A stretch of 46,581 nt of DNA from Thioalkalivibrio sp. (GCF_007692535.1 NZ_REBW01000111.1:1-46581), one strand, 5' to 3'; counted from the stretch's first letter, positions 42,542 to 45,631 are shown. Notes: a model not told the origin generated them from the letters alone. Made by a program: numbers and translations.

Positions 42542-43227
42542 TCCTCGCCGCCGGGCGCGGCGAAAGGATGCGCCCGCTCACCGACCACACACCGAAGCCG
42601 CTGCTGACCGTCGGCGGCATCCCCCTGATCGAGCACACCATCCGGCGCCTGCACGAGGCCGGTTACCGGGATCTGGTGATCAACCTGGGGCACCTGGGGG
42701 AACAGATCGAGTCGCGCCTCGGTGACGGCGGCGGGCTCGGCGTCAGGATCCGCTACTCGCGGGAGCCGCCGGGCGCGCTGGAGACCGCCGGAGGCATCCG
42801 CGAAGCGCTGGATCTGCTTGGATCCGGCCCCTTCCTGGTCATTAACGCCGACCTCTGGTGCGATCACCCGTTGCGTCCGCCGGCCCTCGCCATCGACGCG
42901 CTGGCGCACCTGGTGCTGGTGGCAAACCCAGAGCATCATCCACAGGGCGATTTCACGCTGCGGGAGGGCCGGGTGGGCCTCTCCGGAGGCCCCCGCCATA
43001 CCTTCGCCGGCATCGGCTGGTACCGCCCCGGCCTGTTCGCCGGCCTACCCCGCGGCCGCCGGGCGCTGGCGCCGCTGCTGCGTGACGCCATCACCGCCGG
43101 GCAGGTCACCGGCGAGATCCACCGGGGCGAGTGGATCGACATCGGCACCCCCGAGCGCCTGCGCCTCCTGGAGCAAAAAAAAACCCGGCAGGACCGGGTT
43201 GAAGGCTCCGAAGAGCACCCTCGCTAG
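42529..43227 (+). CDS. murU: N-acetylmuramate alpha-1-phosphate uridylyltransferase MurU
   Basis: Converts MurNAc-1-phosphate to UDP-MurNAc, bypassing de novo synthesis and fosfomycin-sensitive MurA. The nucleotidyltransferase motif is AMILAAGRGERMRPLTDHTP, and PKPLL, GALETAGGIREAL and VINADLWCDHP are typical. I keep the GTG at 42529, since homologues begin MKAMILAAGKG; the ATG at 42538 would give an ATGA overlap with amgK and is the alternative. The final residues (EQKKTRQDRVEGSEEHPR) are encoded by a terminator of the opposite strand and look like a non-conserved tail. Confidence 0.92.
   Translation: MRAMILAAGRGERMRPLTDHTPKPLLTVGGIPLIEHTIRRLHEAGYRDLVINLGHLGEQIESRLGDGGGLGVRIRYSREPPGALETAGGIREALDLLGSGPFLVINADLWCDHPLRPPALAIDALAHLVLVANPEHHPQGDFTLREGRVGLSGGPRHTFAGIGWYRPGLFAGLPRGRRALAPLLRDAITAGQVTGEIHRGEWIDIGTPERLRLLEQKKTRQDRVEGSEEHPR
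43175..43200 (-). terminator. Intrinsic terminator of the sigma/anti-sigma/DsrE operon
   Basis: On the minus strand AACCCGG-TCCTG-CCGGGTT forms a seven-pair stem followed by a run of T (nine T counting the stem end). It begins 49 bp after the dsrE stop codon and is the clearest intrinsic terminator in the window. It lies inside the 3' coding end of the convergent murU gene. Confidence 0.85.
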
Positions 43228-43248
43228 GAGGGTCGGGGGAGAAGCGGG

Positions 43249-43689
43249 TCACGGCTTGATGTAGGTGTAGCCCTCGCGCTGCAGGATGGACAGTTGCGCC
43301 ACACCGCTGAAGACGATGTCCGCCTCGGTCGTGTCGTACAGCGCTTCCATCGGCAGCTGGCGGGAGGTGAGCGTGTTGCGGCAAACCTGGAAGTCCACGC
43401 CCTGCAGCTTCAGGCTGTCGACCGCGGACTGGATATCGGGGTTCTCGTTGGCGCCCAGCAGCAGGTTGATGCCGCCCCCGTGCATCACCAGCTTGATGTC
43501 CATCTTATCGGCGCCAACGGCATTGATGTGATTCTGCACGTTGCGCAGCGCCGCGATGTGCAGGCCCGGATCAGCCTGGTTCACGTGGTAGACCACCCGC
43601 GTCTTGTCGTCGGGCGTGGCGGCAACTGCCATGCCGGAGACGACCAGCACCAGCACCAGCAGGAGCGAATAAAGGGCCTTCTTCTGCAT
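43249..43689 (-). CDS. Secreted DsrE-family protein
   Basis: Predicted periplasmic protein of 146 aa with the DsrE/DsrF-like fold. The start at 43689 has GGAG upstream and gives a clear signal peptide (MQKKALYSLLLVLVLVVSGMAVA). The mature part shows RVVYHVNQADPGLHIAALRN, the loop LVMHGGGINLLL, and GVDFQVCRNTL with the single family-type cysteine at Cys103. It ends REGYTYIKP, very like the end of the anti-sigma protein upstream (EGWTYIRV). DsrE-type proteins in sulfur bacteria carry sulfur on this cysteine, though cytoplasmic DsrE differs from this exported form. It is the third gene of the ECF unit and is followed by a strong terminator. Confidence 0.85.
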   Translation of the reverse strand: MQKKALYSLLLVLVLVVSGMAVAATPDDKTRVVYHVNQADPGLHIAALRNVQNHINAVGADKMDIKLVMHGGGINLLLGANENPDIQSAVDSLKLQGVDFQVCRNTLTSRQLPMEALYDTTEADIVFSGVAQLSILQREGYTYIKP

Positions 43690-43782
43690 TGCTTCTCGCT
43701 CCATCTCGATGAACGGCGGTTTTCGCCTGGTGATCACCGACGCGCACCGCGCCTGTGTACTGCCCCAATGGACAATGCCCGA

Positions 43783-44535
43783 TCACACCCGGATATAGGT
43801 CCAGCCCTCCTGCTGTTTCTGTGCGGCCTCGCGCACGCCCGACTCGACCTCCTCGACCCAGGGAAGCAACTGGACGGGGCGTCCCTCCTCGCGCTCGTGC
43901 CGTGCGCGGGATTGCCCACAGGCGGTGACGCGCAGCCCGTCGTAGGTGTGCACCAGATCCCGGATGCGGTTCGGGAAGGGCGCCAGGTCGGCCCGCACCA
44001 GATCCATCCCGGTTCCGTGCAGCACCATCTGCACCTGGAGCTGCTCGTCGTTGAGCCAGGCCGTCTCGAACATGTGCTCGATGTCATCGAAGAGGGCCTC
44101 GGCGTCGCGCAGATCGACGTCGGTCACGTGAAACAGCACCCGTCGAACGTCCGTGACCGGCGCGATTTCCCCGCCCGCTGCCGAATCCCGCTCCTGGGAC
44201 ACCAGCGCAACCTGCTGCAGATCCACCGATTGCTCGCGGCTCACCTCGAGCACGGCGACCGTGCCCAGCGCCAGCGCGACCACGCTGGCGGCAATGGCGA
44301 TCAACCCGCCGCCCAGCCGCCCCCGCTTACGCAGGGGGCGCCGCTTGGGATCGGGAATCGAGCCCTGGCTGTAGGCCATGTTCACCAGCTCCTTGAGCTG
44401 GTACATGTCACAGACCTCGCGGCTGAGATTCTCGCTGGCCGCGATGGATTTGAGCGTCAACAGGCGGTCCTCGGACGAGAACTCCCCGTCCACGAACGCA
44501 TTCAGGATCTCGTCGCTCGGCCGCGTATCACTCAC
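43783..44535 (-). CDS. Anti-sigma factor fused to a periplasmic DsrE-like domain
   Basis: A 250-aa membrane protein with an unusual order of parts. Residues 1-60 form a helical anti-sigma domain (DEILNAFVDGEFSSEDRLLTLKSIAAS) without the HxxxCxxC zinc motif. A basic stretch (PKRRPLRKRGR) precedes one membrane helix at about 76-96. Residues about 130-250 resemble the secreted DsrE protein encoded next door: RRVLFHVTDVDLRDAEALF, MVLHGTGMDLVRAD, LRVTACGQS with Cys206, and the end EGWTYIRV. It starts with GTG and overlaps the sigma-factor gene by 8 bp. The sensor would thus face the periplasm. The anti-sigma role is inferred from gene order, the N-terminal helices and topology. Confidence 0.78.
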   Translation of the reverse strand: MSDTRPSDEILNAFVDGEFSSEDRLLTLKSIAASENLSREVCDMYQLKELVNMAYSQGSIPDPKRRPLRKRGRLGGGLIAIAASVVALALGTVAVLEVSREQSVDLQQVALVSQERDSAAGGEIAPVTDVRRVLFHVTDVDLRDAEALFDDIEHMFETAWLNDEQLQVQMVLHGTGMDLVRADLAPFPNRIRDLVHTYDGLRVTACGQSRARHEREEGRPVQLLPWVEEVESGVREAAQKQQEGWTYIRV

Positions 44536-45073
44536 CGTGCGTCCTCACCAGCCGCAGCGTCGGCGACTCCGGGGCGGCCTGCTCCAGCAGCAGCTTGCGC
44601 AACTGCGCACGCGCCCGGCTCAGGCGACTCATCACGGTACCGATCGGAACCTCCAGCACCTCGGAGACCTCCGCGTAGGCAAAGCCCTCGAGATCCACCA
44701 GCGCCACCACCTGTCGATGGTCGTCGCTCAACCGGGCCATCGCCCGGCGGACGTCCTGCACGACACGACCGCGCTCCGTCTGCTTCTCGGGGCAGTCATC
44801 ACAGGGGAGATCGATGCTATCCACGTCCACAGTGTCCTTCTGCCGCCGACCCCAGTCGCGATAGCAGTTGGTCATGATCCGGAAGACCCAGGCCTTCAGC
44901 GCGGCCTCATCCTGCAGGGTCTTCAGACGTGTCAGTGCCTTCATCATTGCTTCCTGGACCAGATCGTCGGCCAGAGCGGCGTCGTGACACCAGGCGAATG
45001 CGGTCCGGTAGAGCTGTGGACGCATGTCGCATACCTGCTGTCGCAAACGTCGCTGTGCGAGCCACGTTGCCAT
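44528..45073 (-). CDS. ECF-type RNA polymerase sigma factor
   Basis: Alternative sigma factor of 181 aa. Region 2 is ALADDLVQEAMMKALTRL and LKAWVFRIMTNCYRDWGRR; region 4 is RLSDDHRQVVALVDLEGFAY and EVLEVPIGTVMSRLSRARAQL. The start at 45073 has GAGGAGAG at good spacing; the track's upstream start is a GTG without a ribosome site. The linker between regions 2 and 4 holds a CDDC motif (Cys91, Cys94), unusual for ECF factors. A candidate ECF promoter lies 50-80 bp upstream, pointing to autoregulation. It heads a three-gene unit with an anti-sigma/DsrE fusion and a secreted DsrE protein. Confidence 0.9.
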   Translation of the reverse strand: MATWLAQRRLRQQVCDMRPQLYRTAFAWCHDAALADDLVQEAMMKALTRLKTLQDEAALKAWVFRIMTNCYRDWGRRQKDTVDVDSIDLPCDDCPEKQTERGRVVQDVRRAMARLSDDHRQVVALVDLEGFAYAEVSEVLEVPIGTVMSRLSRARAQLRKLLLEQAAPESPTLRLVRTHGE

Positions 45074-45126
45074 CAGTTCTCTCCTCACCCGACCGTCATA
45101 GCGGCCTTGCTTGTTCTTGTTCGGTG

Positions 45127-45155
45127 TTAGACGCTAGCCATGAAGGCCGTATTCC
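45127..45155 (-). promoter_or_regulatory. Candidate ECF-type promoter of the sigma-factor operon
   Basis: On the minus strand GGAATAC (45155-45149) and TCTAA (45131-45127) are 17 bp apart, close to the RpoE-type pattern GGAACTT - about 16 bp - TCTGA. Transcription would start about 45 bp before the sigma-factor ATG. The site overlaps the upstream half of the track ORF beginning at 45140, one reason to move that gene's start to 45188. Confidence 0.5.
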
Positions 45156-45187
45156 AGCACATTTTTCCTTCAACCCGTGGAAGCGCC

Positions 45188-45631
45188 ATGTCCTTTGACC
45201 CGAAACAGCTCGAAAAATCTTTCGCCTTCGATCCGGAGACCGTGGCAGGCCTGCGCGAGAGCTGGTCGGAACTGATCGTCGCGGTCGTCTGGGACGACCT
45301 GAAAAGCGGGACCATCGGCGCCCTGCCGCGACTGCGCAAGCGGGTGCTCGAGGTGGGGGAGAACCTGCGCTCGCTGCTCTCGGACCGACGCTGGATCCCG
45401 CATGAGCGCGAGCGGGTCAAGGGCGCGATGGCGGCAAGCCTGAACCTGCGCGACAGCCTGCTGCAGGCGGACCGGGCCGCCAAGCTCGTCGCGGAGGGAA
45501 GCGATTTCCCGCGCTTCGAGGCCCGCTACCTGGCGTTCCGGCAGCAACTCCTGGCCTTCATCGAGACCCATGAGCAGATCTGGGCAGATCTGCTGGAGAG
45601 CCTCTACAGCGACGACGCAGACGAGGACTGA
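45188..45631 (+). CDS. Hypothetical all-helical protein, 147 aa
   Basis: I do not recognise this protein. From the ATG at 45188 (MSFDPKQLEKSFAFDPETVAG), with GGAAG upstream, it is soluble, without cysteine, and mostly helical with several charged amphipathic stretches (LPRLRKRVLEVGENLRSLLSD, short form; ASLNLRDSLLQADRAAKLV). It ends with an acidic tail (SDDADED). The longer start at 45140 would run through the sigma-factor promoter. It is divergent from the sigma-factor gene and ends 4 bp before the glutamate-cysteine-ligase-like gene, so it is probably co-transcribed with it. Confidence 0.72.
   Translation: MSFDPKQLEKSFAFDPETVAGLRESWSELIVAVVWDDLKSGTIGALPRLRKRVLEVGENLRSLLSDRRWIPHERERVKGAMAASLNLRDSLLQADRAAKLVAEGSDFPRFEARYLAFRQQLLAFIETHEQIWADLLESLYSDDADED

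Follow-up and report, generated by a model that had tools for sequence, protein, structure and literature searches.

A 46,581-nucleotide (nt) stretch of DNA from Thioalkalivibrio sp. (GCF_007692535.1 NZ_REBW01000111.1:1-46581), referred to as the window and used for all coordinates below, carries a three-gene unit on the minus strand encoding an extracytoplasmic function (ECF) sigma factor, an anti-sigma factor with a C-terminal DsrE fold, and a secreted DsrE protein. An ECF-type promoter lies at one end of the unit and an intrinsic terminator at the other. A previous reading made from the sequence alone had proposed this unit at 43175-45155, delimited by a candidate ECF promoter and a terminator; Pfam matches, predicted structures and the recurring gene order bore it out, and both boundary elements were located. 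The features of the unit are the following.

45130..45155, minus strand: ECF promoter motif GGAATA-N16-CGTC ahead of the sigma gene, with a single exact occurrence in the window
44528..45073, minus strand: ECF sigma factor, about 181 amino acids from the conserved ATG, with Pfam Sigma70_r2 and Sigma70_r4_2
43783..44535, minus strand: anti-sigma-DsrE fusion, GTG start, 250 amino acids, overlapping the sigma gene by 8 nt
44326..44535, minus strand: predicted N-terminal cytoplasmic anti-sigma domain, residues 1-70, with conserved Cys42 and three helices predicted at moderate confidence
44242..44310, minus strand: single transmembrane helix, about residues 76-98, from hydropathy
43786..44151, minus strand: putative periplasmic DsrE-fold sensor domain, residues 129-250, from predicted structure, Foldseek and a profile match
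43918..43920, minus strand: codon of Cys206 in the sensor domain, invariant and aligned with the MTH1491 cysteine
43249..43689, minus strand: secreted soluble DsrE-family protein, ATG start, 146 amino acids, from Pfam DsrE and structure
43381..43383, minus strand: codon of Cys103 in the soluble DsrE protein (alignment column 104), from conservation
43182..43200, minus strand: intrinsic terminator stem-loop followed by seven T

The terminator-like pattern as such was no rarer than in shuffled sequences (mean 1.0) and is distinguished by its position directly after the last gene. The open reading frame of the sigma factor, taken from its GTG start, spans 44528..45088, and the start conserved in the aligned relatives, with which it shares 61-91% identity, is the ATG at 45073 (MATWLAQRR...). 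Matches to Sigma70_r2 (E 1.8e-13) and Sigma70_r4_2 (E 1.5e-14), the presence of regions 2 and 4 only, a length of 181-186 amino acids, the overlapping anti-sigma gene and a conserved autogenous motif together mark it as an ECF (group IV) sigma factor. From the gene overlap, the sigma and anti-sigma genes are presumably cotranscribed. Cysteines Cys34, Cys75, Cys96 and Cys99 of the sigma factor (alignment numbering) were each kept in 27-29 of the 29 relatives, with Cys34 and Cys75 fully conserved, and might give an additional cytoplasmic thiol input.

The second gene product has the layout of a membrane-bound anti-sigma factor, namely, a helical cytoplasmic domain, one transmembrane helix and an extracytoplasmic domain, with the sigma gene adjoining in 70/72 distinct fusions. 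AlphaFold placed the helices of the N-terminal domain at residues 8-16, 21-32 and 35-55, and Cys42 was kept in 68/72 distinct fusions. The sole strongly hydrophobic stretch lies at residues 78-96 (19-residue Kyte-Doolittle maximum 2.6) and is preceded by an Arg/Lys-rich stretch, which argues for an N-in/C-out orientation. Assignment to the zinc-binding anti-sigma (ZAS) family was rejected, as there is no HxxxCxxC and Cys42 is the only conserved cysteine of the N-terminal domain.

Structure prediction settled the fold of residues 129-250 as DsrE-like, as the sequence-only reading had supposed for residues 130-250. The AlphaFold model of this domain had a predicted local distance difference test score (pLDDT) of >90, and Foldseek matched it to MTH1491 (1l1s; E 1e-8, template modelling score (TM-score) 0.89 on target) and less closely to DsrEFH (2hy5). 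The profile of the anti-sigma family also matched 1l1s (E 2e-13), aligning Cys206 with the MTH1491 cysteine, and the Pfam DsrE score of 19.6 bits was sub-threshold (cut-off 22.7). Cys206 was present in 72/72 diverse fusion homologues. It lies where a strand ends and a helix follows, a placement shared by 1l1s and, compared by eye, by a DsrE paralogue encoded in this genome.

The soluble protein matched Pfam DsrE (PF02635) at E 7e-11 (42.8 bits against the cut-off of 22.7), has a hydrophobic, signal-peptide-like N-terminus, and its modelled fold superposed on 1l1s with a TM-score of 0.88. Its Cys103 was kept in 42/45 homologues and in 23/23 within the family sample, so that the cysteine proposed earlier at the matching place of both DsrE domains is present in each. 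A soluble DsrE homologue was found within the locus in 60/84 module loci. In six loci, dsrE stands outside the sigma operon and has its own GGAATA/CGTC motif. The same genome also has two strong tandem PF02635 matches of the DsrE/DsrF type (G000:C136:48003-48880), which fits a sulfur oxidiser possessing a reverse Dsr pathway, as well as other DsrE-family matches.

A protein search detected homologues in 40/58 related genomes. In loci throughout the genus Thioalkalivibrio and in its family, named isolates included, sigma factor and fusion occurred together, in most cases with the soluble DsrE gene too. When 369 gammaproteobacterial genomes were sampled across the class, about 64 (counted from the match table) encoded a full-length fusion; named matches elsewhere included Sedimenticola, Acidiferrobacterales, Candidatus Muproteobacteria and one member of the betaproteobacterial Hydrogenophilaceae. 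Dozens of genomes share this gene order, which answers the earlier call for a survey of its conservation and puts the layout above chance; a chance neighbourhood was rejected, the order being kept across orders of bacteria.

The motif GGAATA-N16-CGTC has a chance expectation of 0.02 in the window. It preceded the sigma gene in 67/71 homologous regions, 63 with exact N16 and four with N15, against 0.04 in shuffled sequences. Conservation of the motif at the sigma factor's own gene indicates that the sigma operon is autoregulated, as judged from sequence comparison.

Targets beyond the operon were predicted from the same motif. In the genome of origin, spacings of 15 or 16 gave 11 matches, and the reversed control gave 0. 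Most of the spacing-15 matches lie inside coding sequence and were discarded; the three intergenic sites with spacing 16 lie before the sigma gene, 98 nt before soxY (L149) and 182 nt before soxA (L150). The soxY and soxA sites recurred in Thioalkalivibrio relatives, with further sites before ccoN and a gene for a metallo-beta-lactamase-fold hydrolase, and spacing-15 sites before another two genes for periplasmic DsrE proteins. In distant gammaproteobacteria, the motif was found before soxX in 11 fusion-positive genomes and also before soxB, soxY and genes for YeeE-type transporters, SoxH-related hydrolases, thioredoxin-like and DsrE proteins, some of the dsrE genes being unlinked.

In sox loci fetched independently of the motif, spacing 16 gave 14 matches in fusion-positive genomes, 20 other spacings combined gave 3, and spacing 16 in fusion-negative genomes gave 1. 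Within 900 nt of soxY the motif was found in 11/51 versus 1/37 cases, a signal that is modest because soxX usually starts the operon. Physical linkage of the module to sox genes is independent support for the regulon: in L102, divergent motifs face the sigma gene and soxY, followed by soxA and soxB, and in L318 and L252, soxX and soxY directly follow the fusion gene. The predicted regulon, comprising the Sox thiosulfate-oxidation system and the DsrE gene itself, is thus well supported at the level of sequence.

Several other observations concern the module and its surroundings. Two loci, L126 and L128, contain another homologue of the fusion, similarly oriented and on the upstream side of the module, which suggests tandem duplication. 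Short frames at G012:C1:3632756, G010:C1:3834610 and similar sites in the genus match only anti-sigma residues 4-67, with 41-53% identity, and are possible second anti-sigma factors without a DsrE domain. Genome G100, in which no fusion was detected, has three ECF sigma genes resembling this sigma family. In L391 and L340 (G157 and G367, one family), the gene behind the motif is CutA-like, judged by its sequence, and makes an unexplained candidate target common to both. A divergent open reading frame on the plus strand (45140..45631) has a mechanical start, ATG 45140, that falls within the sigma promoter; its true start is probably ATG 45190, the product (147-163 amino acids) has an unknown function, and it had no significant Pfam match.

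Together, the module probably represents an autoregulated ECF switch that turns on Sox thiosulfate oxidation in response to periplasmic reduced sulfur. The architecture, its conservation, the common motif and the predicted sox and dsrE targets emerge directly from the comparison of loci. For the signalling steps we infer the following course. The N-terminal domain of the anti-sigma factor would bind the sigma factor and hold it at the membrane. The periplasmic DsrE domain would accept a sulfane or thiosulfonate group on Cys206, either directly or via the soluble periplasmic DsrE protein (Cys103) or SoxYZ, and this loading would release the sigma factor. The soluble protein may deliver, store or remove the sulfur of Cys206. 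Free sigma factor would then transcribe from GGAATA-N16-CGTC promoters of its own operon, soxX, soxY, soxA and soxB, and further targets may include genes for YeeE/SoxT-like transporters, SoxH-related hydrolases and more DsrE proteins. The sequence-only reading had likewise proposed that periplasmic sulfane sulfur, thiol or redox state is sensed, and it stands in part: its architecture and matching cysteines are supported, the predicted Sox and dsrE regulon strengthens its link to sulfur, and its specific signal, the release of the sigma factor and a feeding or damping role of the soluble protein are still at the stage of proposals.

Some results weigh against this proposal. No Pfam or NCBIfam anti-sigma model matched the N-terminal domain at the curated threshold, and no soluble DsrE was detected nearby in 24/84 module loci, 5 of which have little downstream sequence. 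The presence of SoxX in 62/64 fusion-positive genomes versus 99/305 others speaks for the proposal, but the p values of this comparison (Fisher) overstate the evidence, as the genomes are related. The exact motif occurred at only 11/47 soxX upstream regions in fusion-positive genomes versus 1/21 in fusion-negative ones (p = 0.09); with about a quarter of the fusion-positive soxX promoters carrying it, either the choice of sox promoter is variable or additional regulators are at work. Since the soxX-anchored test is not significant by itself, the regulon rests on the spacing control, physical linkage and recurrence across genomes. Genome G100 has GGAATA-N16-CGTC before soxX (L276) with no fusion detected, and some motif matches precede genes without an obvious sulfur role.

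The soluble DsrE protein itself could be the true sensor, a co-inhibitor that sits on the anti-sigma DsrE domain, as RseB does on RseA, and leaves when loaded with sulfur, the fused domain being a docking platform. Among DsrE-fold proteins, those with known structures assemble into homo- or hetero-oligomers (DsrEFH and TusBCD), which speaks for such docking, as does the finding that the gene for the soluble protein either stays in the module or, where relocated, carries the same motif. Cys206, however, is kept more strictly than Cys103, and several loci have no soluble DsrE nearby, and we regard this arrangement as improbable. An envelope thiol-redox switch, in which Cys206 senses oxidants by forming a sulfenic acid or disulfide and sox is induced within an oxidative or sulfite-stress response, would equally suit a single invariant cysteine per DsrE domain and the thioredoxin-like genes among the predicted targets; in alphaproteobacteria, sulfite acts as a stress signal for ECF26 sigma factors (PMC3511301, PMC6527743). 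The recurrent predicted targets, however, are enzymes of thiosulfate oxidation and not of oxidant defence, and sensor and accessory protein both have a sulfur-transferase fold. With thiosulfate-oxidation genes and DsrE itself as targets, sulfur sensing is likelier than general redox stress, and a redox switch appears unlikely.

Finally, the sox-proximal motif could be recognised by a different ECF sigma factor whose specificity is similar, with the module controlling only itself and DsrE. ECF promoters resemble each other, the motif stands before soxX in one fusion-negative genome, and such genomes hold other ECF sigma factors. This explanation is nevertheless very improbable, given that the motif precedes this particular sigma gene in nearly all of the homologous regions (67/71), hardly occurs at the sox loci of fusion-negative genomes, and that the module is physically linked to sox genes in L102, L252 and L318.

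In the control of sigma E by RseA and RseB, a single-pass anti-sigma factor is combined with a periplasmic accessory protein from the same operon. The module resembles that system in layout, but the domains are unrelated and the signal for sigma E is envelope-protein stress, not sulfur. No description of a DsrE-bearing anti-sigma factor or of this three-gene layout was found in the open-access full-text literature, a listing in an ECF classification being possible, and within that literature the earlier impression that no well-described system has this layout held. Control of sulfur oxidation by ECF sigma factors is already known from ECF26 RpoE1/RpoE4 of Sinorhizobium meliloti and Starkeya novella, which govern sulfite oxidation (PMC3511301, PMC6527743). 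They share with the module the ECF sigma/anti-sigma pairs, the response to a sulfur compound, sulfur-oxidation enzymes as targets and self-controlled operons beside the targets; in contrast, they target sulfite dehydrogenase (SorT/SorAB), respond to sulfite and, as far as the available parts of these reports describe them, use COG5662-type anti-sigma factors, with no DsrE domain or gene reported there. In Arcobacter butzleri, mutants of the ECF factors sigma2 and sigma7 have altered sox expression (PMC3445524), but there the two sigma factors act oppositely and possibly indirectly, the signal is unknown, and no DsrE component is reported in the text available.

Control of sox responsive to sulfane sulfur is described for Hyphomicrobium denitrificans, where SoxR/sHdrR act with a YeeE-type SoxT in the circuit (PMC10451225, PMC11582611); those regulators are cytoplasmic repressors needing sulfur import, whereas here the sensor would be periplasmic and borne on an anti-sigma factor. 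Acidithiobacillus RsrS-RsrR and TspS-TspR likewise control tetrathionate/thiosulfate or sox genes, but are two-component systems and not an ECF pair (PMC5093147, PMC12194929). The fold and the cysteine position, the latter tested against 1l1s only, are like those of DsrEFH (2hy5), TusBCD (2d1p), Metallosphaera DsrE3A (PMC4175335) and MTH1491 (1l1s). All of these are soluble proteins, whereas here the DsrE domain is the half of an anti-sigma factor that lies outside the cytoplasm. For the proposed chemistry, DsrE3A offers a biochemical precedent, as it is reported to form a Cys-S-thiosulfonate with tetrathionate (PMC4175335).

How sulfur-oxidising bacteria sense external reduced sulfur has been called poorly understood in a recent report (PMC11582611). 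There is about an even chance that the module represents a widespread, so far undescribed ECF class in which a DsrE-fused anti-sigma factor reads periplasmic Sox sulfur-loading, possibly from SoxYZ or the soluble DsrE protein, and directly sets sox expression in sulfur-oxidising gammaproteobacteria. If the proposal is true, a gammaproteobacterial group including Thioalkalivibrio, a genus of gas desulfurisation, would gain a concrete sensor, regulator, promoter motif and target list. The GGAATA-N16-CGTC promoter with its sulfur input would be usable in synthetic circuits, and a sulfur-carrier fold would be seen to serve as a signal receiver.

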